Positions 6,338 through 57,600 of a stretch of 64,000 bases of DNA are shown here, piece after piece. The stretch lies in NCBI GenBank assembly GCA_009829735.1, contig CM020619.1:24515554-24579553 (forward strand), written 5' to 3'. Below the pieces are notes generated by a model. It did no database searches. It was given only the letters and a program-made list of their open reading frames with translations, and had not been told where the DNA came from. The position numbers and the translations under genes were made by a program. The DNA is from Pyropia yezoensis. Its lineage: Eukaryota > Rhodophyta > Bangiophyceae > Bangiales > Bangiaceae. Each line of letters opens with the position of its first letter. The first letter of the stretch is position 1.

Positions 6338-6346
6338 CACTTCGGG

Positions 6347-6518
6347 GGGTTCTGTGCCTAGAGTGGGGTTAGGTTGGGGTCGTTGGGGTGGGGTTAGGTT
6401 GCACTTGCACGCCATTGGTCGGAGCCCAGATTGCTTGGGGCCGCACGTTGAGCTAGATTCGCTACGCGCAATGTAGATGGCATCAAGGGGTGGGGTTAGG
6501 TTCCTGGCCGTCACAATT
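6347..6518 (+). repeat. MULE left terminal inverted repeat
   Basis: Matches the reverse complement of 10884-11055 over about 172 bp with scattered differences. The inner edge is the shared GTCACAATT at 6510-6518. It contains several TTAGGTT/GGGG words. Confidence 0.9.
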
Positions 6519-6942
6519 GTTGTAGAACCAGGCCACAACCGGAACAGAAGCTCCGCGGCCGTGGCGCCAAACCTCCGGGCGCCAGCCGCCGCTGTTCAAC
6601 CCACCTGAGAGCCCGCCTTTTTTTGCACGCCACCTAGACGACGACCGCAGGGGGATGGCGCTGGCCTACCGCCTCGCATGACTGTTGGCGTGGACGCGCC
6701 GCCGTGGGGGGGGTCCTGGCGTGTTGCACAATGAGCGCAGGGGGCGAGGAGCGCCGTCCCGCATCAGCCGACGGTATGCGGTGTACCTTACCTCGCCGAC
6801 TGGCTTCCGTTGACCCCCCCTCCCCCCCCTCATTTGTCGTGGTGACGCCTGACCCCTTCTTCGTCATCCGTGTTCGTTCATCCCGTGTCACTCCTCCCGT
6901 GACCTGCGCCCCCCCGCGAGCGGGGCGGTCGTGGGCCGGAAG

Positions 6943-19253: not shown

Positions 19254-20530
19254 ATGCAACGAGAGATCGTTGACGGAGGAAAGAAGAGGATGAGCGAAGC
19301 TAAGGTGATCCGACCTTCGATGTCGGAGTGGGGCGCCCCAGTCGTTATCGTACCGAAGAAGGATCAAACCTCTCGGTTCTGCGTCGATTATCGACGCCTC
19401 AACTTGGTAACCAAGAAAGACTCATACCCTTTACCAAGGATGGACGAGTGTATCGACTACCTGGGGGAAGCCACAGTGCTTACCACTATCGACTGCAATG
19501 CCGGGTACTAGCAGATCCCAGTTGCAAAGGAGGATATCCCCATGACGGCGTTCGTCTGTCACAGTGGAGTGTACGAGGTCCTAAGGATGCCCTTCGGATT
19601 GTCCAACGCCCCCGCCACATTCCAGCGGGCCATCGACATTATAATGTCGGGAGTGAAGTGGTGTAACTGCCTGGTGTACCTGGACGATGTCATCGTCTTC
19701 TCGCGTAACATGGATGACCATGTGGAACATGTCGACGAGGTACTCACCCTCTTGCGGAACACCGGGGTAACCCTGCGTCTCAAGAAGTGCGCCTTCTTTC
19801 AGCATACCGTCGAGTATCTGGGTCACCAGATCACACCAGGCAAACTGGAAGTGCTCGAAGCTAATACCCGGGCACTCCGGGATGCGCGATACCCTACCAC
19901 CCAGACACAGCTGAAAAGCTTCCTAGGGATGTGCAACGTATACCGACGGTTCGTCATGGACTTCGCTCGTATAGCCAAATCGTTAACGGTTCTGACGAGC
20001 AGCGCCTTCCCAAAGGTACTCCAACCTCCCTCGCCGAGCAAGGGAGAGGCCATCGAGGTGCTCAAGAAAGCCCTGCAAGCCCCACCCGTGCTTGCGTTGC
20101 CGCATAGACGCGGGACCTTCGTCATCGACGTCGATGCCTGCGATAACCAAGTGGGATGCACCCTGCTACAGGAAGAGACGATCATCGGTACCGATAATGC
20201 TATCCCGGACCTACATCCGGTGGGGTACTTCAGCCTGACACTCAACCCGGCTGAGCGTAGCTATAGTGCCACCGAGCGCAAGTGCCTCGGAGTCATATGG
20301 GCAGTGCAACTGCTCCGGCCATACCTGGAAGGATCCAGGTTCATCGTGAGGTCCGACCACGAACCTTTACGATGGCTCCTCAACCTTGGTGACAAGAATT
20401 CCAACAGCCATGGACGGCTAGCCCGGTGGAGGCTAGCCCGGTGGAGGCTGAAGATGGCCGAGCTCGACTACCGGACCATATAAGAGGCCGGCGCTACCCA
20501 TCATCTAGGAGATGCGCTGTCGCGACTCGG
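19254..20530 (+). pseudogene. Chromovirus reverse transcriptase and RNase H
   Basis: The RT fingers and palm are clear: VIRPSMSEWGAPVVIVPKKD, FCVDYRRLN, MPFGLSNAPATFQR and the catalytic YLDDVIVFS near 19675-19700. The connection to RNase H includes LGHQITPGKLEV and FLGMCNVYRRF. RNase H follows with VIDVDACDNQVGC, SATERKCLGVIWA and RSDHEPLRWL. Two stops interrupt it: TAG at 19509-19511, where relatives have GYWQI or GYHQI, and TAA at 20481-20483 just before LGDALSRL. Near 20415-20445 an 18-bp piece is tandemly duplicated, giving LARWRLARWRL. Confidence 0.95.
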
Positions 20531-26275: not shown

Positions 26276-26338
26276 CTCTGGCCGCCACGCGCCAGACTGC
26301 GGCCTGCCGCCGGCCGCTGCAGCCGGGGCGGCGGCCGC
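26276..26338 (+). repeat. T left terminal inverted repeat, inner part
   Basis: Continues the inverted repeat interrupted at 15167. It matches the reverse complement of about 33805-33870. Confidence 0.8.
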
Positions 26339-27780
26339 TACCAGTGGGGGGGCGGCTGGTACCAGTGAGGAGGCGTCTGCTGCGGACGGAGGGGCGGCTG
26401 CAACCAGTCGGGGGCGGCTGGTACCGGCGGGTGGGCGGCTCGTACAGGTGTGGGGCGGCTGGTACAGGCGGGAGGGCGGCTGCAACCGGTGGGGGGCAGC
26501 CGCTACCGGCGGGGGGGAGGCCGCTACGGGTGGGGTTCGGCCGCTCTCGGCGGGCGGGCGGCCGCTACCGGTGGGGAGGCGGCTACTACCGGCTTGGGTG
26601 CGGCCGCTTCTTGTGGAGAGCGGCTGCTACCGGAGGGGGGCGGCTAGTAACGGTGGTCGGGCGGCTGCTACACGTGGGGGGCGGCTGGTACAGGCGAGGG
26701 GGCGGCCGCTACAGGTGGGGGTCGGCTGCTACCGGCGGGGCGGCGGCCGCTACCAAAGAGGGGCGGCCGCGGGCGGCGGGGGGGCGGCCGCTACCGGTCA
26801 AGGCCGGCCTCGACCGGCGGGGGGGCGGCCGAAACCGGTGGGGGGGCGGCGACCACCGGTGGGGGGGGGGCCGCTACCGGGGTTGGGCGGCAGCTACCGC
26901 TGGGGGGGCGGCTACTCCCGGTAGGAAGCGGCCGCTTTCGGCGGAGGGGCGGCTGGTATTGGTGGGGGGCGGCTGGTATCGGCGGGGCGGCGGCCGCGTC
27001 CGATGGGGAGGCGGCTGCAACCGGCGGGGGAGCGGACTCTACCTGTGCGGGGCGGCTGGTGCCGGCGGGGGCGCGGTGGCTACTGTTGGGGGCGCGGCCG
27101 TTACCGGCGGAGGGTGGCTGCGGCCGGCGGGGGGGTGGCCGCTACAGGTGGGGGGCTGCCGCAAACGTTGGGGTGGCGGCTGAGACCGGTAGGGGGCGGC
27201 TACCACCGGCGGGGGGGCGGCTGCTACCGGTAGTGGGCGGCCGACACCGGCGTGGGGGCGGTGGCTTCAGTTGGGGGCGCGGCGGGGGGGCGGCTGCCTC
27301 CGGCGGGGTGCAACCGCCGGGGGGGCGGCCGCTCCCGGTGGGGGGCGGCCGCGACCGGCGGGGGGGCGGCCGACACCGGCGGAGGGGCGGTGGCTACTGT
27401 TGGGGGGGCGGCCGCTACCGGCAGGGGGGCGGCCACTACCGGTTGGGCGCTGCCGCGACCGGCGGCGGGGCGGCCGCAACCAGTGAAGGGGTGGCTTCCG
27501 CTGGCGGGGCGGCGGCTGCTACCTGCGGGGAGGCGGCTTTTACCGGTTGGGGGGCGGCTGCTACTGGCGAAGGTGCGGCTGCTACCGGTAATGGGCGGCT
27601 GCAACCGTTGCGGGGCGGCTGCTACCAGTTGCGGGGCGGCTGCTACCGGCGGGGGGGCGGCTGCTACCTGTAGGGGGCGGTTGCTCCCGGCGGAGGGGCG
27701 GCTGTTACCGGTAATGGGCCTGCGGGGGGGCGGCCGCTACCGGTAGGGGGCTGCCGCGGCCTGCGGGGGGGCGGCTGCTA
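26339..27780. repeat. G-run minisatellite array, left arm of T
   Basis: Degenerate tandem units of about 20-21 bp, of the type GGGGGGCGGCTGCTACCGGC, with the G-rich strand on plus. Open frames over it (Ala/Gly/Arg/Pro repeats) change register with unit-length changes and are not genes. Four or more G-runs per 80 bases give strong quadruplex potential. Confidence 0.9.
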
Positions 27781-31293: not shown

Positions 31294-31316
31294 TGTGGTT
31301 CCGGTCGCCGACGATG
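31294..31316 (-). repeat. Inner 23-bp inverted pair flanking the T core, right copy
   Basis: Reverse complement of 27781-27803. Confidence 0.8.
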
Positions 31317-32190
31317 TGGGGGCCGGCTGGTACCGCCGGGCGGCCGACTGCTACCGGTGGAGGGGGGCCGCTACCGGCGATGGGGGGGAAGCTCCCGGCG
31401 TGAGGACGGCCGCTATGGCCAGGGGGGCGGCTGCCGCCGTTGGGGGGCGGCTGGTAGCGGGCGAGGGGGCGGCTGCTACCGGTGGGTGGCGGCCGCTTCC
31501 GGCGGGGGGGAGGCCGTTTTCTGTGGGAGGCGGCTGGTACAAGCGTTGGGGCGGCTGCTACAGGTAAGGGGCGGCCGCTACCGGCGGGGGGGTGGCCGCT
31601 TTCGGCAGGGGGGCGGATGCATCCGGCGGGATGCTACCGCCGGGGGGGCGGCCGCTACCGGTGGGGGGCGGCCGCGACCGGCGGGGGCGCGGTCGCTACC
31701 GGTCGGGGGCTGCCGCCTCCTGTGGGGGGCGGCTGGTCCGGCGGGGGGGCGGCTGTTACCGGTTGGGGGCGGCCGTGGCTGGTGCAGGGGCGGCTGCTAC
31801 TGGTCGGGGGCGGCCGCTACTGCCGGGGGGGCGGCTGCTACCGGTGGGGTGCGGCCGCGACCGGCGGGGGGGCGGCTGCTACCGGCGGCTGTTACGGGCG
31901 GGGGGGGCGGATGCTACCGGTGCAGGGGTGGCTGCTTCTGGGGGGCGGGCGGATGGCACCGGCGGGGGGAGCGGCTGATGCTGCCGGGGCGGGGGGGCCC
32001 GCTGCAGCCGCTTAGGCAGATGCTACTGGGGTGGGGGTGCGGCTGCTGCTGCGCGGGGGCGGCCGCTATCGGTCAGGGGTTGCCTTCTATCGGCAGGGGG
32101 GCAGCTCCTACGTGTGGGGGGACGCGTGCTTATGCCAGGGGGAAGGCTGATGCCGGTGGGGGGGCAGCTGCTATTGGCGGTCACAACTAA
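31317..32190. repeat. G-run minisatellite array, plus-strand G-rich
   Basis: Same unit type and same orientation as 26339-27780, although it lies on the opposite side of the core, where a simple inverted structure would predict the C-rich orientation. Confidence 0.9.
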
Positions 32191-32399: not shown

Positions 32400-33802
32400 T
32401 CCGCACTCAGCACCCGCCCGCCCGCCCCCCAAGAGGCAGCCGCGCGCTCCCCGGTAGCAGCCCCCCCCCCAACCGGTAGCAGCCGCCCCCCCCGCCCGTA
32501 CCGGCCGCGCCCCCACCGGTCGCGGCCGCCCTCCCGCCGGTACCTGCCGCCGTCCCGCAGGGACCAGCCACCCCCCAAACGGTAGCGGCCGCCCCCTACA
32601 GGTAGCGGCCGCCCTTCTGCCGGTAGCGGCAGCCCTGCGGCCGGCACCAGCCGCCCCCCACCGGTAGCAGCCGCCCCCCCGACGGTATCCGACGCCCCCC
32701 CGCCGGGACTAGCCGCCCTCCCTCTAAGAGCGGCCGACACCGCACCGGTAGCGGCCGCCCCCCTGCCGGGACCTGCCGCCCCCCCGCCGGCACCAGCCTC
32801 CCCCCCGCCTGTAGCGCCCGCCCCCCACCTGTAGCGGCCGCCGCCCCGCCGGAACAAGCAGCCCACCCGTCAGTAGCAGCCGCCCCCCCCCCGATAGCAG
32901 CCGCCCCCACGGCCGCAGCAGCCGCCCCCCACCGGAAGCGGTTGCCCACACGGCCGCAGCAGCAACCCTTCACCGGTAGCAGCCGCCCCCTCAGCCACTG
33001 GAGCCGCCCCCCTGCCCGAACCAGCAGCCCTCCCGCCGGTACGAGCCGCCTCCCACCAGAAGCAATCGCCCCCTCGGCCGTACCAGCCGTCCCCAACCTG
33101 TAGCAGCCGCCCCCACGCAGGTACTACCGGGAGCCCCCCCGCCAGTAGCAGCAGCGCCATCGCCGAGGCCTGCCCCCCCCCCACCGGTAGCGGCCGCCCC
33201 CCTCCGGTAGCACCCGCCCCCCCGCCGGTATGAGCCGCCCCCCACGGGTAGCAGCCGCCCCCCGGGTACTAACAGACCCCTCCGCCGGTATCAGCCGCCC
33301 CCGCACAGGTAGTGGCCGCCCCCCACCGGTACCAGCCTCACCCCTGCCGGTACCTGCCGCCCCAACGGCCGCGGCAGCAGCCCCACAGCCGGTACCAGCA
33401 GCCCCCCCGCCGGGAGCAGAAGCACCCCACCGGTACCAGCCGCACCCCCGCCGTTACCTGCCGCCCCAACGGCCGCAGCAGCAGCCCCACTGCCGGTACC
33501 AGCCGCCCCCCCACCGGTACCAGCCGCCCCTTCGCCGGCCGCGGCCGCCCCCCACCAGTTACAGCCGCCCCCCCGCTGGTACCAGCCGCCCCCCCGCTGG
33601 TACCAGCCGCCCCCCCCAGGTAGCGGCGGCCCTCCCGCCAGTAGCGGCCGCCCCCCACCGGTAGCGGCCGCCCTCACGCCTGTACCACCCGCCCCACACC
33701 TGTACCAGCCACCCACCCGCCGGTACCAGCCGCCCCCGACCGGTAGCAGCCGCCCCCCCGTCCGCAGCAGCCGCTCCCTCGCTGGTATCAGCCGCCCCCC
33801 CA
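32400..33802. repeat. G-run minisatellite array, minus-strand G-rich, right arm of T
   Basis: Same unit family in inverted orientation (C-rich on plus). Together with 31317-32190 it forms a large imperfect palindrome around 32190-32400. Confidence 0.9.
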
Positions 33803-34155
33803 CGGGTAGCGGCCACCGACCCGGCTGCAGCGGCCGGCAGCAGGCCGCAGTCTGGCGCGTGGCGGCCAGGGTACGCTCGCCCGCGTCCCATTTTTCGGCG
33901 CTCGTCCCAGCCCCTTTGGCTGGCCCGCTACCTCCGTGCTGCACCAGACACCATCCCCCTGCATGCCTGAGTCATCCCCCGTGGCCTCTCGCCACTTCCG
34001 GCATCTCCCATGGCCGTAGCGGTCTATCGTCGGCCATAGCTGCACCCCCCAGACGCGTCAATTTCCCAGTGTGACGAACTTGCAGGCTGATGGAGACGAA
34101 TCCGCAGGCTGCGGGCCTCGCGCGAGCGAACTTGCAGTGTGCAAGTTCAAACGAG
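33803..34155 (-). repeat. T right terminal inverted repeat
   Basis: Reverse complement of 14884-15167 plus 26276-26338. It carries the unoccupied chromovirus target site: one copy of GCGTA (minus strand, 33876-33872) where the left end has two copies and 11.1 kb of retrotransposon. Confidence 0.85.
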
Positions 34156-35355
34156 TATTAACTTCGTGAGGGCTCCGCGCTATGCTTCGATCGCACCCTG
34201 GCTGCCACCAGGTGTCGCCTTGGGGACTGCCGCCTTCAATGCTCTTCGCGGCTGCGCAGGGAACGCATGGGTGGGGCGACGCGCGGGCTGTCCTCTGAGC
34301 TGCCGCTGTCCGTCTTCCGCCTGCTTCGCACGCTGACGCGGTGCACGACTGAGGACGAGGGCGCTCAGGTACGGTGTGACGAGTATTCTGCTACCTGAAC
34401 GTTGCAGAGGGGGATCCGGTGGGGAAGGGAGACGCAAGCGACTCGGGAATTGGGGGCGATAACATAGGCTTCTGTCGATCGGCACGTTGGTGAGTGACCG
34501 TGCCCTGACAATAAATGTTATGTCTTGGTGCGCCATGTTTGTTGTGTGCGCTGCAGTGCGTGTGTGTGATGACGATGGTGAATGCAAGCACCGCCATGGA
34601 GCATCTTTATGTGTACGCTCTTCTGTGTCTTCTCTTGCGTAGCTGGCTTGATCGTAGGGATGGTTTTGGGCGTATGGTGTGGCCGAGTGGACACGAGTCA
34701 TTACCCGTGCTTCAGACGAGGCGAGGGTGCGCCTGCTCCGCTGGGGCGCTTTCTGACCGACGTTTCCTCGCCTGCTTTGCTTGTCCTCAGCCGCGCTTTC
34801 CTATTCGCAATGACTGACCCGGTGTGTGTGAGCAGCTGGGTGGGGTTCTTGTGTTTTTTAAGCGTGTCTGCATGCTGGCGAGGGCGGGAACGCGGTTGCT
34901 GAGGGGGGTGCGGTGGTGGCGTGGAGTGCATAGGTAGAGACTGGCCGGCAGAACGTGCGCCACCATGTGGATAAAGCACGTCTAGGAATGCGAGATTGTT
35001 CAATCGTCGTCGCCCCGCTGTGAGGTTTACGATGTTCTCGACATCGAGAGCCGCAGGCATTGCCACGCAGAGAGCCGCATAAAATGCCAGGCGCTCTTTC
35101 CTCATGGTTGGCGCACACGAGTGTGGGATCGATCTCGGGGAGAGTCTCTCCATTGAACGCGCACAATAGATAGGTGCAAATCAAATCATCGCAGCTCTTC
35201 CAACGCAGTCGTGAGCGAGAGAGCATTGCGAACATGCTCCACTGACGGCTGAGAGAATGTGCCCGCGTACGCTGGCGATTCCGTGACCACGTAGACGAGC
35301 GCAATATCTTGAAAGCCTTCTCGCTGGAGATTGGAATGGAACAGGCGGCGAAGAT
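34156..35355. other. Intergenic, possible decayed minus-strand coding pieces
   Basis: Moderate GC. On the minus strand two short pieces read like protein: about 35390-35200, with GFQDIALVYVVTES and SVEHVRNALSLTTALEEL, and about 35105-34960, with KERLAFYAALCVAMPAALDVE and RRRLNNLAFLDVLY. They are in different frames and bounded by stops. No family is recognised, and no intact gene can be supported. The promoter of the gene at 35356 should overlap the right part. Confidence 0.3.
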
Positions 35356-38300
35356 ATGGAAACGGATAATTTCAACGAATCTGTTGGGTGCTGTGAGCCC
35401 CATGACGCATGCAGCCTTCCCCTTGTGTGCCCATTCTGGAGGCGAACAGCGAAGCAGGCGACTCTCCAGTTTTTCCCCCGCCTGTGCACGTCAGCCCACA
35501 TGTCGCGTACGCGCGTCTCCGGGACGACACGGGCTACCTCATCGGGCTTCGTCGGCGGGGTTTCGCCACTGCGTCTGCACGCGGGCAGCTGCGTCAGCTT
35601 CGGTGTTGCTCTGCCCAATGCTGACTACATGACCGTGTGCCCTCGTCTGGCACGTGTGAGGCATGGCATGGTCCAGTTTGGCGTCCGGGGCCCGCGCGTC
35701 CTGCTCTTCCCTGGGCGGCGGCTTGAAGCAGCGGCAACGAGGTGTCTTCAAATGCAGGCAGATCCTAGAGTGGGAGGCGGTGGACGTCCAGACGGAGAAC
35801 AAGGTGGAGTGGATCCGTCCGTGCCTCCGTCTTCCTCTCCGTCCACTCCTGCACCTGCGCCTGCGCCCCCGTCTACACCTTCGCCTACGCCTGCTCCCCC
35901 GACTGCGGCTACACCCGCGCACCCGACTGCGGCTACACCCGCGCCCCCGACTGTGGCTACCCCCGCGCACCCGACTGAGGCTACACCTGCGCCCCCGTCT
36001 GCGGCTACACCCGCGCCCCCGTCTGCGGCTACACCCGCGCACCCGACTGCGGCTACACCCGCGCACCCGACTGTGGCTACCCCCGCGCACCCGACTGAGG
36101 CTACACCTGCGCCCCCGACTGCGGCTACCCCCGCGCCCCCGTCTGCAGCTACACCTGCGCCCCCGTCTGCGGCTACACCCGCGCCCCCGTCTGGGACTAC
36201 ACCCGCGCCCCCGTCTACCGCTACACCGACGCCCCTGTCTACGTCTGGACCTGTGCTTTTGTCTACACCTGCGTCCGCGCCCCCGTCTACGCCTACACCC
36301 GCGCCCCCGTCTGCTGCTGCACCCGCGCCCTCGTCCCAGCCTCCAGCTGTACTGCAAGACGCGGCGGCGCTTCAGCTGCAAGCTGACTCGCACTGGCGGG
36401 TTGCCGCGACGTACCTGGAGATGGCTCAGGCGGCTTCAGACCCAGATGCGAGCAAGGCCTTTGCCCGCGCATCCGTCAAGCAGACGGACCAGGCCGCGCG
36501 CCTGCAAGAGCGATCTGAGCGCCTGCGGGAGCAGTTATTTGTGGATCAGGCAAGGGGACCTGTTTGTCGCACGCTGCGCAAGCTGAAGTTGCTGCGGGAC
36601 CCTGACCTGCAGCAAAATCGATCACCACCTGACTTTCGCCGCATCTTCCGGCCGCACCCGTGGCGGCCCCGTGTGGATCTTGGAGACGCACTTTCCCTTT
36701 TTTGGGATGATGTGGTAATGCGTGTGATCGGCAGCCTACCTGTCCCTGACCCGGATGGTGGGATTGACTCGGATGATGGCGAGGACGAGGTGACGCCTGG
36801 GCGCCTGCCGCTTCTGTACCTGATGTCGTCCTTTGGTCGCGGCAAGACGCTCTTCCTCCGTGAAGCTGCTCAGTACCTACACACTGCGGGTGATCATGAC
36901 AAGACTACCAGGGCGAGCCGCATTGTGCACGGCCGTCACGTGGTCGTCCTGTGTGTCAACTTCAATGGCGACTTTCGCGTCCAGACCCAGGAGAAGGCGG
37001 GGCTGGAGAGCCGCTCTGACGAGTTCAGGTCCAACTTCTACCTGCTGCTGCATGTGCGCATCCTTTTTAACGAGCTGGCGAAGATGAACGACCCGGCCGA
37101 GAACTTTACCCTCTTCCTGCAGCATTTCTACGCTGACTATAAGCTCGGGCGCTTCAGCTTCAGCGACGTCTATGCAGAGACTCGGAGGCTGATGGTAGCC
37201 CGCGCGAACCGCGGCACAAGGAGAGATGTTGTTGTGCTGCTGGTGGACGAGATTGCCAAGCTGCGTACCGGTGTCGCCGGCGACCTGTCTGAGGTGCTGG
37301 GCTTAGACATCAGCAGCTGCATCCGGTCCGAGTGCTGCGCTTTGTCGGACGCGGGCTCGGGGCTCGGCATCACTTGCTGCACAGCCATGGAGTCCTCCCT
37401 CATGCTTGCGGAGCGCTTGGCATCTGGACGGCCAGCTGAGGCCCTGAATCGTATCCCCCCTGGCTCCCTACTGGCGCAGACGCTCCGTTTGCGGGACGCC
37501 ATGCGCCTCAGTGCTGGCGGGGACTCTGGGTTCAACTGGCAGCAGACTGGGGCGAGGCGTGATGCCGTGCGCCCTGAGTCAGATCATATGGCCGTTGCCT
37601 TGGCCTTGACGGGCGGCGTCGTTTGGCGCTGCGCGGAGCTCCTGGCGATTGAGCTGCGGCGGAATACACGCGCGCCGGTGCAGGATATGCTTGACCGCGT
37701 GGAGCGCCAGCTCGTGGTGGACTCGACTGGCAAAGACCTGGGCTTTACGTCCCTGTGGGCCAAGGAGAACGCTGCCGTTCGAGACCAAGTGCTTGCTGCC
37801 ACGTTTTTGGCGGAGGACGTGTCTGAGGGCTCCCTTGTGGTCGATGTGGAGGACCGTGATGAGCTCCCTGTCAAGGAGAAGGACAATGCTGATCCGTCGG
37901 ACCCGGGCCAGAGCGAGCTGATGAGGAAGGAGGTGCTTGTTCGACGCGCGGAGGTGGCGACTGAGGTCTGGAAGCAGTTCAAGAACCCCGGACTGGACAG
38001 GCTCACGTGGGGCAATGCTGTCTCCCTTGGCATCCTTTCGTGTGGTCGTGCGTTGAAGTTTACTCCGGCCATGATCCCTCTGGTTCTTCTCCACGCGCTG
38101 CACGACAATGTCGAGTCTTCACCTTCCGGTCTATGGAGTGCCCTCCGGGCCCTCACCCGCTCAGCATCTGTGTCGGCAGAGGGCGAGAAGGACGGCGAGG
38201 GCAACAAGCTCCGGGCGGCCGTCAAGTACGATTGGTGTGGATGGGAGCTGTTTCTTCTCCGCTGGGAGCACCTGATATCTTGCGCGCGGGCTTTGCGGCC

Positions 38301-39015
38301 TGCAGGGTGGCGCTCCATCACCATAGGGGCGCTGTACGGGCGCCCGCCTCAGTCCCCTTGCTTCCAGGGGCCGAGCCCACTGCTGCACAAGGTGTTGGTG
38401 GACGCCACTGTGGCGCGCTCTGGCGTGGTGTTCCTGGCTGGAGCTGGTGAGCAGGAACAAGACGCGTCGGCGATCACCCTTAATGATCTTCTTGCCGGGC
38501 ACGTGAAAGAGGACGAGATGCTGCGGACTGTCTACAAGCTGCGCAATGGCGCGGCATCGGTGGACGGCGTGTGCTTCTACCGGGCATTGAACTACGTGCC
38601 AGGTGTTGCAACGCGCGGCGAGTTGGTCGCTGTCTTCATCCAGGGCAAGCACTCCATTCCCACTGCTGCAACCTCTTTTGGGAAGAAGGACGTGGAGGAT
38701 TCCTTGAGCGTGCTATCCCTTTTATACGGGGATGCTGACCAACAAGCGACGACCCTGTTTGGCAACCAGACGATTTTGGCCAAGTGGCAGCGGCGGTCGG
38801 TGTTTCTCTTCGCCTGCACGCGCAAGGTCTCGCCCACGACGAGGGAGTTGGCTGGCCCTTGGGCTGCCCAGACTCTTGTCCTCGGCGAAAGGGATCTGGA
38901 GAGGCTGCTGGGGGCGACGCTCTTCTACCTCGCCCGGGCTCTCTACCTCTTGCACCCGCAAGGGCCGACTCGCTCGTCCAGACCTCAACCTCCTGGGACG
39001 GCGGCAGGTGCCTGA
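35356..39015 (+). CDS. P-loop NTPase-nuclease protein, Crinkler/RHS-like
   Basis: The open frame holds 1219 codons with no intron or stop. The true start may be a later ATG; residue 133 (MQADPRVGGGG, 35752) opens the part that looks organised. Residues about 157-330 are a Pro/Thr/Ala repeat. About 337-395 is a charged helix that may form a coiled coil. The NTPase region has a Walker A-like SSFGRGKT (K497, T498), a strand VVVLCVNFNGDFR as in Crinkler/RHS ATPases, a Walker B VVVLLVDEIAKL (D631, E632) and a sensor-like strand GLGITCCTAMESSLM. The C-terminal domain has D1070, E1089 and the strand LVAVFIQGKHS (Q1096, K1098), an arrangement compatible with a PD-(D/E)xK nuclease fold in which the usual acid is Gln. 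Such NTPase-nuclease proteins occur as expanded, often transposon-linked families and as secreted effectors in protists and fungi. I see no signal peptide or LxLFLAK header, so a nuclear or intracellular role is as likely. Family call is from motif order. Confidence 0.6.
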   Translation: METDNFNESVGCCEPHDACSLPLVCPFWRRTAKQATLQFFPRLCTSAHMSRTRVSGTTRATSSGFVGGVSPLRLHAGSCVSFGVALPNADYMTVCPRLARVRHGMVQFGVRGPRVLLFPGRRLEAAATRCLQMQADPRVGGGGRPDGEQGGVDPSVPPSSSPSTPAPAPAPPSTPSPTPAPPTAATPAHPTAATPAPPTVATPAHPTEATPAPPSAATPAPPSAATPAHPTAATPAHPTVATPAHPTEATPAPPTAATPAPPSAATPAPPSAATPAPPSGTTPAPPSTATPTPLSTSGPVLLSTPASAPPSTPTPAPPSAAAPAPSSQPPAVLQDAAALQLQADSHWRVAATYLEMAQAASDPDASKAFARASVKQTDQAARLQERSERLREQLFVDQARGPVCRTLRKLKLLRDPDLQQNRSPPDFRRIFRPHPWRPRVDLGDALSLFWDDVVMRVIGSLPVPDPDGGIDSDDGEDEVTPGRLPLLYLMSSFGRGKTLFLREAAQYLHTAGDHDKTTRASRIVHGRHVVVLCVNFNGDFRVQTQEKAGLESRSDEFRSNFYLLLHVRILFNELAKMNDPAENFTLFLQHFYADYKLGRFSFSDVYAETRRLMVARANRGTRRDVVVLLVDEIAKLRTGVAGDLSEVLGLDISSCIRSECCALSDAGSGLGITCCTAMESSLMLAERLASGRPAEALNRIPPGSLLAQTLRLRDAMRLSAGGDSGFNWQQTGARRDAVRPESDHMAVALALTGGVVWRCAELLAIELRRNTRAPVQDMLDRVERQLVVDSTGKDLGFTSLWAKENAAVRDQVLAATFLAEDVSEGSLVVDVEDRDELPVKEKDNADPSDPGQSELMRKEVLVRRAEVATEVWKQFKNPGLDRLTWGNAVSLGILSCGRALKFTPAMIPLVLLHALHDNVESSPSGLWSALRALTRSASVSAEGEKDGEGNKLRAAVKYDWCGWELFLLRWEHLISCARALRPAGWRSITIGALYGRPPQSPCFQGPSPLLHKVLVDATVARSGVVFLAGAGEQEQDASAITLNDLLAGHVKEDEMLRTVYKLRNGAASVDGVCFYRALNYVPGVATRGELVAVFIQGKHSIPTAATSFGKKDVEDSLSVLSLLYGDADQQATTLFGNQTILAKWQRRSVFLFACTRKVSPTTRELAGPWAAQTLVLGERDLERLLGATLFYLARALYLLHPQGPTRSSRPQPPGTAAGA
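35886..36225 (+). repeat. Coding minisatellite, 24-bp unit, about 14 copies
   Basis: Units such as CCGACTGCGGCTACACCCGC plus four bases encode the eight-residue repeat PTAATPAH/PSAATPAP. Degenerate units continue to about 36320. The unit length preserves frame, so copy number can vary without breaking the protein. Confidence 0.95.
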
Positions 39016-40146: not shown

Positions 40147-42973
40147 GCAGCCTACATTCTCAAGTGAGATTGGGAATGTAGGCTGCGCATTGAGAATGTA
40201 GGCTGCTGGTACCCATATCGGGGGATCAACAGGACCTGCCAGGCTGACAGTATCTTGTGCTTATGACCAGGCCCTTCGAGAGGGGGGCGTACGAACGCGC
40301 GGGACGTAGGCCTACCCTCCTGCTGTGACGAGCTCGTTGGTGCCCCCCCCCTCGGCCGGCTGCGACCGGAGGGACCCTGTTCCCCCACTGTTGGTCGACG
40401 GGACACCCACATCGCTGCGCCTCCCCACTCTCGCCGTCGCCCCCACTCGGCAGCTCCCCCGGGATTTGACTTTCCCCCCTCACCACTTCGTTGTACTACC
40501 GCTTCCGTGATCGCCGCCCATGCCTGTTTGCCAGCTTGTCGCCCCACCCCCATCTGCTACCGCCCGGTGCCACAGCTGTGAGCCAGCGGCCGCTCCCCCG
40601 TCACCGCGGCCGGCTAGCAGCCCCGTGCCTCCGCTGCCGCGGAATTCCGATACGGTCCCCACCCCCAGCTGCTCCTCCGTCGAGTATCGTCGCCACCGGC
40701 CGGCCACTACCCCCCCGTCCCCATCACCCGCTGGTCTCTCCGCCCCCGCCGCCGGCACGGCCTGAACGCACCCCCCGGCACTGCCAGCATCGGCGAGGTG
40801 ACCACGTGGTTATGGTCGTCAAGTGAGAGAAGTCCTTCTGATGTGGAGCTTGCGAAGCACAGTACCCGATCGTTCTAATGTACAGGGCCATGAGGCACGA
40901 TGTCACTGAGAAAAGCAACGTACGCACAGCCAAATGGAGTTTACAGCCCCGTTTGTGACCAACACTGGGGCCATCCTCGCAGAGAAGCGAAACATGGTGT
41001 GAGTGGGCACGGTTTTTACATCGGGAACAAAGTGTATTGTCACTTAATGACAACAAGCAATACGTAGTTTATTGCAATCGGCGGCCTGGTCATCGACTGC
41101 AGAAGCTGCCGCAGAACAGGTCCTCAAAGACGTACTTCTACTCGTCTGCTCGTGGTTCTGACGCTACGAGCGTTCTCAGAGACCTGTTTTGGTCTGTCGA
41201 GACTCAGTTAACAAAGAGGTCCCGACCTTTGTTCTTCGGGGAGTGCGTGGTGATGGCTTGTGGCGGCCAGCCGGCGGCAGCGGCGGCCGGGGGAGCGGCA
41301 GTAGCGGCCGGGGGGCAACGGCCAGCCGGCGGTGGCGGGGGTGGCGGCCGGCCGGCACAGGTGGGTGGGAAGCGGCCAGCCGGCGGCAGCGACGGCGGCG
41401 GCGGCCAGCCTGCAACGGCGGCGGCCGCGGCGGGGGGGCAGAGGCCAACCGGCGGCGGCGAGGGGGGGCGCCAGCGGGCGACGACGCAGCGGCCGCGGCG
41501 GCACCGGGGGGGGGGGCGGCGATCAGACAGCGGCGGCGGGGGCGGCCAGCCGGCGGCGGCGGGGGCAGCGGCCGTCCGGCGGCGGCGAGGGCAGAGGCCG
41601 GCAGGCGGGGCCTGTGGCCGCCGCAGGGGGGCGATGGGCTGCCGGCGGCGGCGGCGGCGGGAGCGGCGGTGGGGCAGCGGCCAGCGGGCGGCGGCGGTGG
41701 TGGCAGGCAGACGGAGGCAGCGGCATCGGCAGAGGCGGAAGCGGGGTCGAGGCGGCGACCAGCCGGTGGCGGCGGCGGAGGCGGCCAGCAGGCCGTGGCG
41801 GTTGCAGCGGCCGGGAAGCAGCGGCCAGCCTGCGGGAGCGGCGGTGGGACAGCGACCAGCGGGCGGCGGCGGTGGTGGCGGCCAGTGGGCGGCAGCAGCG
41901 ACACCAGCCGCAGCGGCGAGGCGGAGGAAGCGACCAGCAGCGATGGCAGGGGTGACAGGCAGGCAGCGGCAGCGGTAGCGGCGGCGACGGCGGCGGCAGC
42001 GGGAAGGGGGCGGCGAGCAAACGGGGGCGGCGGGGCCAGGGGCCAGCCGGCGGTGGCGGCGGCGGCGGCCAGCCGGCAGCTGCGGCAGCGGTGGCAGCCA
42101 GCCGGCGGCGGCCGCGGCAGCGGCAGTGGGGCAGCGGCCAGCGGGCGGCAGCGGCGGTGGCCGCGGCAGGGGACCGATGGGCGGGCGGCAACGGAAGCGG
42201 GAGTGGCGGCGGCATGGGGGGGGGGGACGACCTGTCGGCAGCGGTGGGGGCGGCGGCCAGCCGGCGGTGGCGGGGGCGTTCGCCAGCCGGCAGCGGCGGG
42301 GGCGGCCGCCAGCCGACGGTAGCGGCAGGCACGGCCAGCTGGCGGTGGCTGCGGCCGAGGTCAGCCGGCGGCGGCAACGGCAGAGGCGAGGGGGCAGCGG
42401 CCAGCGGGCGGCGGCGGCACAGCCGGGGGGGCAGCGGCCAGCCGACGGTGGCGGCGGCGGCAGCGCCGGGGGGGCAGCGGCCAGCCGACAGTGGCGGCGG
42501 CGGCGGCAGCGGCAGCGGCAGCGGCCAGGGGCCACCGTCCAGCGGGCGGCGGGGGGGGCACCAGCGAGCAGGCGGCCGCGCTGGCCGGGGAGGGGGGGCG
42601 ATGGGCAGCCCGCGGAGGCGCCGGCTGCCGCGGAGGGGGGGCGGCCGCCGCCCGGCGGCGGCGGGTGCGACGGCCAGAGGGCGGCAGCGGCGGCAGAAGC
42701 GCCGGGCGGGCAGCGGCCAGCCGGCGGCGGCGGAGGCGGCAGCACCGGGGGGGCAGCGGCCAGCCGGTGGCGGCGAGGGTGGTGGCCAGCCGGGGGCGGC
42801 GGTGGCGGCCGCGGTGGGTGGCCGGTTGGGCGTGGCGTTGGCCACGTAGCGTTCTGAGAGACACGTTACGCGCTAGGAGACGGCTCCCCAACGCTGGTGT
42901 CAGCTGTGTTTTGACCAATCACAGGCGTCCGCGCAGCCTTCAATGTAGGGTACCGCCTTCAATGTAGGCGGCC
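40147..42973. repeat. GC-array block with ATGTAGG-type ends
   Basis: The left edge has GCAGCCTACATTCTCAA (40147-40163), whose exact reverse complement lies at 40190-40206, with another AATGTAGGCTGC between. The right edge has CAATGTAGG twice (about 42943 and 42961), the second within CAATGTAGGCGGCC. The shared end motif is GGCnGCCTACATT read inward from both sides. Between them lie about 0.9 kb of unique sequence and the 41260-42840 array. It may be a non-autonomous transposon, but no target duplication is visible. Confidence 0.4.
41260..42840. repeat. GGC-rich minisatellite array
   Basis: Degenerate units of the type GGCAGCGGCCAGCCGGCGGC, about 1.6 kb. All six frames are nearly free of stops because of composition. 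The unique edges share an imperfect direct repeat (GAGCGTTCTCAGAGACCTGTT near 41168 and GTAGCGTTCTGAGAGACACGTT near 42845). Confidence 0.9.
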
Positions 42974-45296: not shown

Positions 45297-46020
45297 CAGG
45301 CCCTGTCATAAGTAGATGATGGGTGAGTACTTTCTACAGTATGAGTGCCAGTATACCCGTACTGGCGGCTTTTTGCAGACGCTGATACTGCACTCTGTCC
45401 CGTGAGAAGGCACGCACTCATACTCGTGCCGGTCGCTCAGTAGGTATTTCACGAGTATTAGTTGCGCACAAGGCAGTGCCTCATACGACCCACAAGAGCG
45501 GTCTGTCGGGTGCAGCCAGTACGGTGAAAGCGCAGTTTCTGTGCGCTTCTGTTAATAAACAGGTCCGTTTATGCCTTCGAAATGGACCCACACGGTTACC
45601 GCCCGTCCCGCCGGTCTCCTGTGCGTCGCTGGCGACGGATGCGTGCGCGCACTGTTGGCGATGGAAGCAGACACCACCGACCAAAACAGAGCAGTTGCCC
45701 GCCTCCAGGTTCAGAGGAAGGGACAGAGGTGCCGCGCTCGGTGACCGACCCCGCGTGGCAATGTAGCGGCAAGACATTGGTTCCTTGTTGCCAGACTCGG
45801 GGTTCCTTGGGTGCCTCCCACCGCTCAGTTGGCCCACACGCGCCTGCCTACCGTCCCGTCGAGGCCTCCCTGTACTTTTCCTGTCAAACCGGTGCCTGTC
45901 GCCTTATCCACGGCAAAGGGAGGCACGGGCCCTTCCCCCCCCCCCGCTCTCTCTTTCGTCCCGCTCACGCACTCCCCTTCCCTGCCCCCCCCATTGCCCA
46001 CGCTCCGCTGAACGGGCGGC

Positions 46021-48672
46021 ATGTCGACCACGAGCACTGAGGACGATGGTATCGCCCCAGTTGGACGGGAGCTCGTAGCACTCGCCCCCACGGCTGCGGA
46101 CCGCGGAGGGGGTTCCGACGAGGAGGAAGAAGGAGCGGAACCGCCCCGAGTGCGGAAGCGGCCGCTGAGCTCTGGTGCGTCGCCTGCCCCAAGTGAATTA
46201 TGGAAGGCGTCGGTACTGCGCGATGAAGTCGGCATCCAGCGTGCTGTGGTGGTCAAGAGCCCACCGATATCCGTTGACCAGGGCAACCACAGCTGGACGC
46301 TGGCTGCGGACTACCGCTCAAAAAGCGTGCGTTCAAAGGTTTGGGGCCTCGTGGACGTGTACACCAGGGCTGGCACCGACGACGTTTACGTCCTCTGCCG
46401 GGTTTGCGGGCTTGAGAATGTCACAACTTTTCTCTTCCTTAAGGACGGGGTCTCGAGCAACGCGTCAAAGCACTTTGAATCGGCGGGCAAGGGCAGGGGC
46501 TCGGAAACCCGGCGGGGCGACCATCTGCTGGCAGCTCTCTACCTATCTAAAAATATCAAGGGCGGTCCGAGAACTCGAGAGGTGGCCAACGACGGGTCGC
46601 TCACCCAGTTCCTGCGCCCGGCTGCCCGACGGGATCACCACGTCCGGTTCGTCATGATGCTGGTAACGAGCGCGTCACCTCACGCGTTTGCCCGCCAAGA
46701 GCGCCTGCGGACCTTCCTCGCGGGGCTGCGCGTAACGTACACGCCACCAGCGCAAGCGACGGTGCGGCACCACCTCACGGAGCTGGCGTCGGTTGTTCAC
46801 GGCGCCTTGACGGGTATGCTTGCCAAGGTGAAGGAAGGCTCCTCCGGTGTGCCCTGGGGCCACATCTCCCTCGACCTGTGGACGGCGCGGCACTCCAAGG
46901 AGAGCTATGGGTCGCTCGTCATTCGCTTTACTGAGACGAGCACGTTTGCGGGCGGTGAACGTTCTCTTGGGGTATGGAAGTGCGGCGGGAAGCACGACTT
47001 TGCAAGCATTCGAGCTTGGACCAAGAACCGGCTGGCGTACTTTGGGCTTACGATGGAAGACATTGCGAGCTCGACTACCGATTCCGGCGCCAACGTTCGC
47101 AAGGCCATGATCGGGTTCACTGACGCGTGGGTCCCGTGTGCCGCCCATTCCTTGCACAACGCTGTCAGGAAGGCTCTCGGGGGCCCGGGCGAGTCGGCCA
47201 CCCAGCGCTCGGCACGCATGGCCAAGGGTGGCGAGGCCGCCCGTCGCCAGCTCAAGCCCTGCCCCAATGATGGGGCGCGAGAGGCACTTGCTCGCTTGCG
47301 CACCACGGTCCGGTTTTTCGAGCACTCCCCGGGCGAGGCGAAGCGCATGCGCGGAGTCGACGCGGCGGGGGATCCCAGCTCCCGCGGGCTGGTGCAGGAC
47401 GTGGCAACGCGCTGGGGCTCGACGTACGAGTCGCACTGTCGCCTGTTCACCATGTGGGAGCCGTTGACGGCGTACTTTCGATCTGCGTCGTTGACGGCGG
47501 AGCAGCGGCAGCGGCGTATCACGCGCAGTGACTGGGACAAGCTAAGGCACTTCATCGGCGTATTGACGCCGTGCTACGAGGTCACCAAGGCCGCTGAGAG
47601 CGGAACGGCCACCCTCGCGGACCTGCTCCCCCTGCTCGTCGCTTTGCGCAAGACCATGCACTGCGACACGATGGTCGTCCCCAAGTACCCCGAGCCGCCG
47701 CTGGCGGTCGGCGCGGCCGCCATTGAGCAGTACTTGGCCGACAACCGGGACGTGGACGTGATGGAGTTGGACGACCGCCTGTTCCCGAGCGAAGATGTGT
47801 ACGTGGACACCACGCCGGGGTTTGAATGTCTGTGCCCGGAAGCTCGGACGGCCGTTCATCTTCTCCGGTCGGAGTTGGATCGGCTTTTTTTTAGCCGAAA
47901 GGACGCCACCAAGAACTGGTTGCAGAATGATGCCGTGCTAAGGGCAATGACGCTGACGCCCGGGGGATCCAGAATGCTGCGGGAGGTGGCCACGTGGCTG
48001 GGCGACCCGGACCCATCGCCGGTGGCCGAGGCTGCCGTTTTGACCACCGCCACCAGGTGGAAAGCCCCAACCTCGACAGGTGACAACCGTCGCGCGCCCA
48101 GTGCACCGCCCACCCCTGTCACTGCGTCGCGGCACTCCGAGCAGCGAGCCGCGGCACGGTCTTCCTTGGTGCTTTGGGGTGCTGCTGTCCCTGGGCGTCA
48201 GCAAGGTGGCCGCCCTATGCACGCTGGGGATGCTGGGGACGTCCACGCGGAGCTGACGCGCTATCGCACTCTTTCCAAGAACATGTCAGCTGATGAGACC
48301 TCCACATTTTGGCGCCGGCACCGTGAACAGCTCCCCACCTTGTATTTGGTGGCCGCCTCTGCGTTTGGTGCCGTTGGATCTTCTGCCTCGTGCGAGCGCG
48401 ACTTTTCGTTTGCGGGTCGGCTGGTGCGGCCTGACCGTGCGTCGCTTTCCATTTCAAGTGTGGAGATGCATTCGCTCGTGTCAGCCAACGCTGACCTGGT
48501 GTCCGAGGACACGGCTTCCGTGCCCATCCTTTCGCACGCGGCGGCGGATGAGTACAGGTGCGCAATGAACACGTTTGAGCCAACGGTAGATGATGTGGGG
48601 GACGAGGGAGGGTACTGGGAGTCGTCTGCTGATTTTGAGGAGGGCGAGGACGAGTCCTCGGTGGAAGGGTAG
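46021..48672 (+). CDS. hAT transposase
   Basis: Intact 883-residue frame starting at the first ATG after the subterminal region. The N-terminus is acidic and is followed by a BED-like zinc finger with C126-x2-C129. The RNase H-like core has its first Asp at D285 (SLDLWTARHS), the second at D354 (TTDSGANVRKA) and the hAT signature C373-x2-H376 (CAAHSLHN). VATRWGSTYESH follows the helical insertion start. The C-terminal dimerisation domain has FWRRHREQLPTLYLVA and SSASCERDFSFAGRLV, with the catalytic Glu at about 792. Every hallmark of the family is present and no stop or frameshift is seen. The protein should bind the 18-bp ends and excise by a hairpin route. The acidic tail after residue 850 is unassigned. 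Confidence 0.95.
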   Translation: MSTTSTEDDGIAPVGRELVALAPTAADRGGGSDEEEEGAEPPRVRKRPLSSGASPAPSELWKASVLRDEVGIQRAVVVKSPPISVDQGNHSWTLAADYRSKSVRSKVWGLVDVYTRAGTDDVYVLCRVCGLENVTTFLFLKDGVSSNASKHFESAGKGRGSETRRGDHLLAALYLSKNIKGGPRTREVANDGSLTQFLRPAARRDHHVRFVMMLVTSASPHAFARQERLRTFLAGLRVTYTPPAQATVRHHLTELASVVHGALTGMLAKVKEGSSGVPWGHISLDLWTARHSKESYGSLVIRFTETSTFAGGERSLGVWKCGGKHDFASIRAWTKNRLAYFGLTMEDIASSTTDSGANVRKAMIGFTDAWVPCAAHSLHNAVRKALGGPGESATQRSARMAKGGEAARRQLKPCPNDGAREALARLRTTVRFFEHSPGEAKRMRGVDAAGDPSSRGLVQDVATRWGSTYESHCRLFTMWEPLTAYFRSASLTAEQRQRRITRSDWDKLRHFIGVLTPCYEVTKAAESGTATLADLLPLLVALRKTMHCDTMVVPKYPEPPLAVGAAAIEQYLADNRDVDVMELDDRLFPSEDVYVDTTPGFECLCPEARTAVHLLRSELDRLFFSRKDATKNWLQNDAVLRAMTLTPGGSRMLREVATWLGDPDPSPVAEAAVLTTATRWKAPTSTGDNRRAPSAPPTPVTASRHSEQRAAARSSLVLWGAAVPGRQQGGRPMHAGDAGDVHAELTRYRTLSKNMSADETSTFWRRHREQLPTLYLVAASAFGAVGSSASCERDFSFAGRLVRPDRASLSISSVEMHSLVSANADLVSEDTASVPILSHAAADEYRCAMNTFEPTVDDVGDEGGYWESSADFEEGEDESSVEG

Positions 48673-54142: not shown

Positions 54143-54607
54143 CCTTCTTGTTCAGACCCACGCACCGCCACTCGCGCACGTGGGCTTCCCTGCACACACC
54201 GCGGGACGAGCACGAACGGCGCACGCGGGGAGGAACACAACCGCGGCCCGTGACGACACCCAGGCCCAGGGGTCTGACGACGCGCTTGGCAAGTAGCCGA
54301 GGCGCAGCGGCGCTGTGCCGCCCGACCCGTGGTCGTTCAATCGGCCGGCACGACGGCGTCGAGCAGCCCTCCGCGGACGCGCTCTCGCTCGGCAGCCACC
54401 AGCGCGGCCTGCGGCGCGCCTAGTGGCACGGTGGGCGGCGCGACAAGCGAGACGACCGGTGAGGTGGCCAGTGACACGGCCAGCACCGCGGCACAAGGTG
54501 CCGCACCCCAAGACCAAGCCAGCCCGGCCGCCTCGGCGCGCCCTTCGGCGCCGGCAAGCTCGGCGGCGTCGCCAACCCCGCCCACTCCTCCACCGGCGCC
54601 ACCAGCG

Positions 54608-57600
54608 ATGGCCGACGACGCCGCGGCCGCCGCAGCGGCGGCAACCGCGGCCGTGGCTGCGGCCATGTCAGCGGCCGGTGTCAACTCCGATGGGTCCACC
54701 GGCAAGGCGCAGCACGTCAAGGCGCCCGAGTGGGCGGGCCCGGACGGGTTCATCCAGTACGAGGAGGAGATGTCGCTGTGGCTCTTCATGACAACGCTGG
54801 CAGACAACAAGAAGGGCGGCGCCATGCGCGTGGCCCTGACGGGGGCGGCATACGACACGGCCCGTACGGTGCCGGTCGAAACGCTCATCACCGACCAGGG
54901 ACACGTCGAGCCGATGAAAGTGCTCCGCCTCGCGTTCGGCGGCAGCGACTCCAAGCGCGGGCACTCCGCGTACCGCAAACTCAAGAAGACGTACCGCGGC
55001 AACTCATCCATGGAGACGTACCTGTCCGCCATGACCCTGGTCCTGGCGGAGTGCAACAATAACGGCTACGCCATCTCGGACAAGACAGCCGTCTCCATCA
55101 TCCTTGACCAGAGTGGACTGGACACCAATCAGCAGGCAGCGACGATGTCGACGGCAGCCATGCACGTCGTCAAGGGCCTCGACGAGGTGGCGGCCTTGAA
55201 CACGGCCATGAGCGACCTGTGGGGCGGTGACTCGACGCTCGCGCCCTCCGCCAGCGCCGTCATGATGTGCGTCACTTACGGTGAGCACGCGGCGTACATG
55301 GCGGCGCGGCGCACAAAGCCGGCGGCACCCGGCTCGGCCGGGGGCTCCAGCGTGCACAGTGCGCCCAAGGCCGACCCGGCGGGCTGCTGGCACTGTGGTA
55401 AGACCGGCCACGTCCGCCGGGACTGCCGCAAGCTCGCCCGGGAGAAGGAACAGGCGGCCAAGACCGGTGACGGGGACAAGCGCAAAGACACGCACGCCGA
55501 CGAGACCGGGTACGTCTCCCACGAGACTGCCCACATTGTGCTCGTGGCAAACGAGGAGGAGGGCAAGCAGCTCGCCGCCAAGGCGGGTGACGTCATCCTG
55601 GACATTGGCGCCACGGCCACCATCGCGGGCGCGGCTTGGATCGCCGACTACGTCGCGCAACTGACGCCAACGGAGCGCGCCTCCATCCGCTCGGCCGAGG
55701 CGGCCGCCGTCTTCACCTTCGGCGGGGGGCACACGCAGCGCGCCTACGAGCGCGTGATCCTCCCCATGCTGGTGGGCGGGCGCAGCTGCATGGTACAGAC
55801 CTGGGTGGTGGCCGGCCACCTCCCCATGCTGCTCAGCCGCAAAACAATGGCGTCCTTGGGCGTCATCCTCGATGTGGCGGCTCGAAGCATGCTTGTGCAG
55901 GACCTCAACGTGGAGGTCGGCCTGGCCATGTCGCCCGCCGGGCACCTGACCTTCAACGCCCTCGACCGCGGCCACGACAAGACGACCGCTTCGGTGGAGC
56001 CGCCCGTGGAGGCGGTCCGCGGGTTCACCCTCATGGCCGTACTCACCAAGGAAACGCCCGACCTCGCCAGGTCGGCCACAAAGCTACACAAGCAGTACGG
56101 CCACTGCTCGGCCGCCCGCCTCATCGAGCTGCTACAGCAGCAGGGCGTCACCGACAAGGAAGTCTTCGCCGCGGTGACGACCGCCGTGGCTGTATGCGAG
56201 GCGTGCAAGCAAACTGCGCCACGACCCACGCGACCGGTCGTCAGCGTGCCACGTGCGCTGACATTCAAGGACACAGCGGCGGTCGATCTGGCTGAAGTGA
56301 CCCCCCCGGGTACTTTCTTGCACATTGTGGACCTAGGCACCCGCTTCGCCAAGGCCGTCGCCATTCCCAACAAGACGACAGCCACGGTGACTAGCGCGTT
56401 TCTGTCGGGCTGGCTGGTTCACCACGGGGCGCCACGAGCTCTGCTGTCCGACCAGGGGAGTGAGTTCGACAGTCACCTGTGGCGCGCCATGGGGGAGCGC
56501 TTCAACATCGACGTCTGCACTACGGCTGCGCAGGCCCACTTCTCAAACGGGGTGGTGGAGCGGCACAACCTGACCATCAAGACAATGGTCTCCCGGCTTC
56601 GCCGCGACCACCCCGGGGCGAACGCGCAAGAGCTGCTGGATTTGGCGTGCCTGGCCAAGAACTCCATGAGCGCCCATAACGGGGCGTCGCCCTTCCAGCT
56701 GGTCTGCGGCAGCACTCCCCGCCTGCCAGCCGTCCTCACCGACGGCCTGCCTGCTTTGGGAAACGGGGCTGTGGCGGGTGACGAGGCGCTGCGCCTACAT
56801 CTAGAGCTACTCCACGATGCCCGCGCGGCGCACACGCAGGCAGAGGCCGACGCTTCTCTGCGGCGGGCTCTTGCCCGGAATGCAACCAATGTACCCCACC
56901 GCACCTGGGCGGTCGGCGACACGGTATACTACTGGACGGAGGGACTGTCATCGAGCCGCGGCGCGTGGCACGGCCCGGCACACGTTACAGACGTAGCCGC
57001 TGACAAGCAGTCCGCCCGCATCCAACACGGCCACGCTTGGACGACACGGCACGTGTCCCAGCTCCGCCCGGCCGGGGAGGACGACCCCAAGCCGACGGCT
57101 GACCCCGGCTCTCCATCGACCTCGCACAGCTCCACCGCAACGCCAACCACCGAGGCGGGGACGGTCTCGCCCGTGACCGCTGGTGGGGATGACGTGCCCG
57201 CGGGTGCTGACCAGGGGCCGGACAAGGCAGACGCCGCGTCGGACACCCAGTCGCCGGGCAACGACACGACGGCGGACGAGCGGGATGCCACTGCGTCTAT
57301 GTTTGCTGGCGCACGAGCCGCCATGGAGCAGGCTGACGCGGCGTCGGCGCCGTCGCCTGACGTAGCTCCCGCACCAGGGCGGGGACCCTGGAGTGGACGG
57401 ACGCGCAGCCGGCAGGCGCACTTCTTCTCTGGAGCGCCACCTGGCGCGGCGGCGCACCACAAGGGCTACCGGCACTCCATTGAGATGGCACAGCCCGCGG
57501 ACGCAGCATGGGCTCAGGAGCTGTACGCCTGTCGCGTCAAGCGCATCAAGGAGCTGGGCGGGCCGCGGCAGGCGGAAAAGCTCCGCGTAGCCAAGGCCGC

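Follow-up and report, generated by a model that had tools for sequence, protein, structure and literature searches.

What does a 1219-codon open frame encode when it lies in repeat-rich DNA of a red alga, and where in the cell would its product act? The question is raised by a 64-kb stretch of the Pyropia yezoensis genome (hereafter the window; assembly GCA_009829735.1, contig CM020619.1, positions 24,515,554 to 24,579,553), in which the frame at 35356-39015 on the plus strand, from its ATG to its stop codon, encodes the 1219-residue protein P0001. An initial annotation of this DNA had described the product as an intact NTPase-nuclease of the Crinkler/RHS type. Our analysis places it in a large gene family whose members share a P-loop nucleoside triphosphatase (NTPase) and a nuclease-like C-terminus, and of which many carry a leader resembling a plastid transit peptide. 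We tentatively favor the reading that this is a host family of nucleoside triphosphate (NTP)-dependent nucleases, many of them imported into the plastid, that police foreign or surplus organelle DNA; plastid location, nuclease activity and DNA target are all predictions from sequence.

An intact gene and its paralogues

From stop to stop the frame extends over 35287-39015 (1242 codons). It is the longest in the window, followed by one of 1133 codons with integrase and zinc-knuckle matches. In 100 simulated 64-kb sequences built on the dinucleotide statistics of the window, the longest stop-to-stop frame never exceeded 556 codons (median 360). Guanine-cytosine (GC) content by codon position is 0.65/0.45/0.72 in the NTPase region and differs from that of the same frame immediately outside. 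The frame is real, coding and intact, as first described, and is a nuclear gene of P. yezoensis. The motifs that the initial annotation named (SSFGRGKT, LLVDEIAKL, VNFN and FIQGK) are all present, and the long proline-rich repeat that it reported is encoded by 18.8 copies of a 24-base tandem repeat.

A search for paralogues, proposed with that annotation, was made by tblastn against the 107.5-Mb genome (11 contigs; 146 candidates, 52 scored). It returned at least 69 matches, equivalent to at least 44 loci when matches less than 10 kb apart are joined. The copies sit singly, in either orientation, on all three large contigs (18 loci on C1, 11 on C2 and 15 on C3). Besides the window copy, 29 loci (L009-L037) were read. 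A single open frame crosses both domains in 18 of these 30 loci (the window, L009-L012, L020-L023, L025, L027-L033 and L035), with L023 having no ATG where the conserved start lies. Loci L013-L016, L018, L019, L024, L026 and L034 are broken or incomplete, L017 is without its middle part, and the stretches read for L036 and L037 end inside the locus. Far subfamilies are only 22-31% identical to the window protein. The P. yezoensis protein P0009 corresponds to locus L012 on C1 (100% identity over 848 of 884 residues). Within the limits of our searches no relative was found outside the red algae, prokaryotes and viruses included.

The ratio of nonsynonymous to synonymous substitution rates (dN/dS) between paralogues is 0.33-0.61 in 12 comparisons of whole pairs or pieces; where pairs were divided (six of them), the core gives 0.25-0.57. 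Comparison of the window with L013 in three pieces gave 0.33, 0.48 and 0.44, with 0.33 in the C-terminal part. These values indicate that the paralogues are under purifying selection. The family is dispersed, large and fast-diverging, and its genes behave as host genes. In L022, a 320-base end stretch is present four times in tandem before the flank (positions 5814-7093 of that locus) and once in L023.

A shared P-loop NTPase

In the window protein the Walker A motif, SSFGRGKT, departs from GxxGxGK[ST] in that the first G is replaced by S. Far paralogues have motifs closer to the canonical form (GSPGRGKT in L033, GQAGSGKT in L030 and ASPGVGKT in L031), which argues that SSFGRGKT is a true, altered P-loop. 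As in ASCE P-loop NTPases, a Walker A motif is followed in the family by an hhhhDE Walker B motif. A profile of 18 members matched ORC1 in the PDB over Walker A and then Walker B with a whole-sequence E-value of 7.7e-5, the two pieces alone giving E-values of 1.6 and 0.36. The Pfam family AAA_22 was matched by half of the members (9/18; best E-value 3.4e-6, threshold 0.5). Both Walker motifs occur in the same order in ORC1/Cdc6 and in STAND-type ASCE ATPases (AAA_22, AAA_16, nSTAND_NTPase5), whereas the likeness of the family to these proteins is confined to the two motifs and the remainder falls into no recognized family. By these matches the family shares a P-loop NTPase that is ORC1/AAA/STAND-like.

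A nuclease-like C-terminus

The initial annotation had noted a C-terminal D...E...FIQGK pattern compatible with a nuclease fold. Residues D1070, Q1096 and K1098 of this pattern are conserved, but the family does not keep the glutamate between the aspartate and QGK; the one that it does keep is upstream, at E964. Of the 17 members compared, 16 contain D-x(16-25)-[Q/S]-x-K, with Q in 14 and S in two (L009 and L031), and the last, L022, has QxR at this place. The D, [Q/S] and K residues are kept while most other C-terminal positions vary. They are preceded by a W-E segment with the invariant glutamate, which is helical in low-confidence models. In two such models the order of strands is compatible with the alpha-beta-beta-beta-alpha-beta core of PD-(D/E)xK nucleases.

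TnsA-like PD-(D/E)xK nucleases have the active site D...QxK. The family resembles them in the aspartate, the Q-x-K 16-25 residues on and the conserved glutamate further upstream, but gave neither a sequence nor a fold match to them, and none of the 19 members aligned over the C-terminus matched a Pfam nuclease family. Of the proposed NTPase-nuclease pair, the P-loop NTPase and a conserved D...[Q/S]xK stand, while the poor structure models do not confirm the nuclease fold itself. We consider the C-terminus likely to be a PD-(D/E)xK-type nuclease with a Q-x-K site.

Relation to Crinkler and RHS proteins

Passages of a review of Crinkler-RHS-type (CR) proteins give as a common architecture a P-loop NTPase followed by a restriction endonuclease (REase) C-terminus, and describe large, diverse eukaryotic families (PMC5289972). 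The present family has the same domain order, with a putative nuclease after the NTPase, and is likewise large and diverse; its NTPase is recognizable as a P-loop NTPase of some kind, but not as the CR subtype. In contrast to CR proteins, it gave no match to the Pfam Crinkler and RHSP models in 18 members, whose sequences included almost no leader, and a plastid-type leader takes the place of the headers described. The Crinkler Ubl/LFLAK header (PF20147) was found neither in the genome at an E-value of 10 nor in 14 control genomes, and the trypanosome RHSP model (PF07999) had no match in the genome and none in the 14 controls. The window protein matched no such Pfam header, in agreement with the annotation's description of an algal protein without a recognized one. 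With silent controls for the header and RHSP searches and an unconfirmed nuclease fold, CR membership is not established; the likeness to Crinkler/RHS proteins lies in the domain order and the presence of a P-loop NTPase, and a design like that of these NTPase-nucleases, the architecture originally suggested, is plausible.

Plastid-transit-peptide-like leaders

The leaders carried by many paralogues were overlooked in the initial annotation and are a new finding of this work. Passages of an earlier study describe plastid precursors of Porphyra yezoensis as strikingly like those of glaucophytes in their N-terminal phenylalanine motif (PMC2222254). For comparison, 16 stretches of the same genome were read, 7 from the 14 light-harvesting matches and 9 from the 12 phycobilisome-linker matches. 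Six of them (L040, L042, L051, L055, L058 and L059) have a readable MAF or MAAF start, the start methionine having been chosen by us and L055 having an earlier in-frame methionine. In the other ten, the frame opens past a probable intron or contains other in-frame methionines only; some of those in L043, L053 and L054 resemble junction methionines, and that of L057 is a possible start without the motif. The control set of ten stretches, from proteasome (6 of 23 matches) and ATP-synthase-type proteins (4 of 4 matches), contains no MA(A)F, with few starts readable there.

The family resembles nucleus-encoded Pyropia plastid precursors (light-harvesting proteins and phycobilisome linkers) in an M-A(A)-F start or FVA/FVG, an acid-poor, basic leader and, often, a methionine at the apparent junction. 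The mature parts are unrelated, and in the window protein the F motif lies further in.

The count took in 19 leaders, that of the window among them, from the loci read in which the frame reaches beyond the 5' end of the core; it excludes the L024-L028 group, whose leader seems to be on another exon. In L024, L025, L027 and L028 an apparent upstream exon with MTPHHPTAF, transit-peptide-like, is joined via a probable intron. The strict motif MA(1-2)F, derived from the plastid precursors above, occurs in five of the 19 leaders against 0.25 expected (reached in 0/20000 shuffles) and in three of 14 subfamily representatives against 0.20 (16/20000), as compared with 2 of the 789 open ATGs of the window. 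M-x(1-3)-F is present in 11/19 leaders against 3.9 expected (1/20000) and in 8/14 representatives against 3.2 (53/20000), the window scoring through M104 and not M49. FV[AG] at any position is a weaker signal (6/19 against 1.2, 5/10000; 3/14 against 0.95, 585/10000). A loose pattern, M..F[VIAG][AGST] within 20 residues, broadened once the family had been seen, was found in 13/19 leaders against 2.4 expected and in 10/14 representatives, the window among them, against 2.0 (0/10000 shuffles in both cases). In 11 members, acidic residues make up 0-6% of the leader and 10.6-15.2% of the remaining protein. Judged by sequence, the N-termini of the paralogues are plastid-transit-peptide-like far more often than shuffled leaders.

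The leader of the window protein is weaker evidence than those of its paralogues. Read from M49, a start chosen by us, it begins MSRTRVSGTTRATSSGFVGG... and is acid-poor: over residues 49-132, aspartate plus glutamate amount to 2.4%, compared with 10.6% in the rest, and lysine plus arginine to 14%. The window protein and P0007 are 74% identical over residues 39-132 (70/94) and 66% over residues 400-800 (262/400), with a seven-codon, frame-keeping indel in the former segment. The two marks of a red algal plastid protein, an N-terminal phenylalanine motif and an acid-poor leader, are found in the family; the window protein shows the motif in its looser form only.

A proposed role in policing organelle DNA

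Because many paralogues bear plastid-type leaders, the likely site of action shifts to the plastid. In the role that we tentatively propose, the leader would carry the protein into the plastid and then be cleaved off close to the junction at M133. The NTPase, taken to be of the ORC1/STAND kind, would sense or load onto nucleic acid and serve as a nucleotide-driven switch or loader, such that the C-terminal domain becomes competent to cut DNA when nucleotide is bound. In the review passages cited above, NTPase-REase Crinkler proteins are proposed to pair such a switch or loader with a cutter in the same way (PMC5289972). The policed DNA could be that of plasmids invading red algal plastid genomes. 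Passages of a study of such plasmids present them as parasitic elements spreading into red algal plastid DNA and name Porphyra pulchra, Pyropia tenera and P. haitanensis, among others, as carriers (PMC4814812).

Several observations weigh against this proposal. P. yezoensis is not among the carriers named in those passages (PMC4814812). In the window leader the F of SGFVGG is at position 17 counted from M49, so that only the looser pattern applies and the strict one does not; M104 (MVQF) is not shared by P0007; and M1 opens an acidic stretch. Across the family, six of the 19 leaders lack even the loose pattern, itself widened after the fact; L017 and L023 keep the leader motif with the methionine lost, and L029, L030, L033 and L035 lack both. 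The rate of leader evolution is high (dN/dS 0.41-0.95 over the first 60 codons), and mitochondrial import is not separable from plastid import because most control starts are unreadable. The window protein matched no Pfam family. Both AlphaFold models are poor (one with a predicted local distance difference test score, pLDDT, of 37) and leave the nuclease fold unconfirmed, and no PDB match was obtained.

The reading that competes best is nevertheless a doubtful one: a nuclear or cytosolic NTPase-nuclease of the Crinkler/RHS type, directed for instance at transposons, with a leader that is incidental or 5' untranslated. Its domain order would be that of a common CR architecture in the review passages (PMC5289972), its surroundings are repeat-rich, and the window motif lies 17 residues in, within a leader whose codon-position GC is not diagnostic; yet the leader motif is enriched over shuffles in subfamily representatives, and none of 18 members matched Pfam Crinkler or RHSP. 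That the proteins are instead plastid or mitochondrial housekeeping nucleases, serving for example uniparental inheritance or the turnover of organelle DNA and not defense, we regard as quite unlikely. The localization evidence would serve this explanation equally, and passages of the plasmid study describe the organelles as maternally inherited (PMC4814812), but housekeeping genes would not usually be kept as dozens of diverging copies. It also seems improbable that the proteins are STAND/AAA-type switches or regulators with a C-terminal domain that lacks, or has lost, nuclease function. The nuclease assignment does depend on a motif, with poor models and no Pfam nuclease match in 19 members, and among 17 members S replaces Q in two and R replaces K in one; against this, D, [Q/S] and K are retained amid change, and dN/dS between the window and L013 is 0.33 in that part.

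The initial annotation had also offered a mobile-element protein; that an element encodes it and moves the gene round the genome we find very improbable. Copies standing singly in both orientations on three large contigs, and hAT and copia elements close by, speak for it. However, the endpoints of homology differ among duplicates (11 pairs compared), and when the ends of nine pairs, one of them single-ended, were inspected by eye, neither terminal repeats in common nor target duplications nor poly-A were seen. A tblastn comparison of four element proteins of the window with the 23 long paralogue loci found a single 45-residue gypsy piece. The mobile-element claim is unsupported, since the duplicate pairs inspected have no common termini and the paralogues are under purifying selection. 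The downstream flank of L027 contains a 620-base element (6779-7399), probably a small non-autonomous transposon, with about ten other genomic copies at 78-84% identity.

Returning to NTP-dependent nucleases that act on organelle DNA, an arms race fits, because the family is large and divergent. In its boldest form, which we judge unlikely, the bangiophyte nucleus would keep dozens of arms-race-style, plastid-imported NTPase-nucleases that destroy invading organelle DNA, whether plasmids or foreign or paternal genomes, their chassis being Crinkler-like and their header a transit peptide. If this were true, the family would be a direct candidate for a guard of the red algal plastid against plasmid DNA and for a nucleus-run immune system of an organelle. 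It would also mean that a header swap can readdress the Crinkler-like design to an organelle, the headers in the review passages being others (PMC5289972).

Features of the frame and its surroundings

Table 1. Features of the 1219-codon frame, in window coordinates
Feature	Position	Strand	Basis or remark
Whole open frame, 1219 residues (P0001)	35356..39015	+	Frame call; chance maximum 556 codons
Plastid-transit-peptide-like leader, residues 49-132	35500..35751	+	Composition, F motif, P0007 comparison
Probable mature-protein start, M133 QADPRV..., recognizable in paralogue L013 too	35752..35829	+	
Proline-rich repeat from 24-base tandem array	35830..36340	+	Tandem Repeats Finder (TRF) 35885-36335; shorter in P0007
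Charged linker ahead of NTPase region, probably helical	36341..36552	+	Secondary structure inferred
P-loop NTPase region	36553..37500	+	Motifs, family profile, Pfam matches of paralogues
SSFGRGKT	36826-36849	+	Residues 491-498
VNFN	36955-36966	+	Residues 534-537
LLVDEIAKL	37237-37263	+	Residues 628-636
SGR in NTPase region		+	Residues 690-692
Middle region, mostly helical in low-confidence model	37501..38220	+	No known family matched
Nuclease-like C-terminal region: W-E helix (E964), D1070, Q1096-x-K1098	38221..38952	+	Fold not confirmed
D1070	38563-38565	+	
Q1096-x-K1098, within FIQGK	38641-38649	+	

The neighborhood of the frame contains many repeats and elements, as the initial annotation had indicated. 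Degenerate, very GC-rich arrays, mostly of 20-21-base units, occupy 26325-27712, 31316-31885, 32436-33814 and 41263-42810; such arrays keep many overlapping frames open on both strands, so long frames there are no evidence of genes. A gypsy-type fragment on the plus strand (19512-20483) encodes a reverse transcriptase (RVT_1) and RNase H. On the same strand, a copia-type element at 54278-59707 has a zinc knuckle and a weak integrase match in one frame and a reverse transcriptase (RVT_2) in the next, with a stop between the two. Seven kb downstream of the NTPase gene, an 886-codon plus-strand frame at 46012-48672 carries a hAT-family C-terminal dimerization domain and is possibly an intact hAT transposase.

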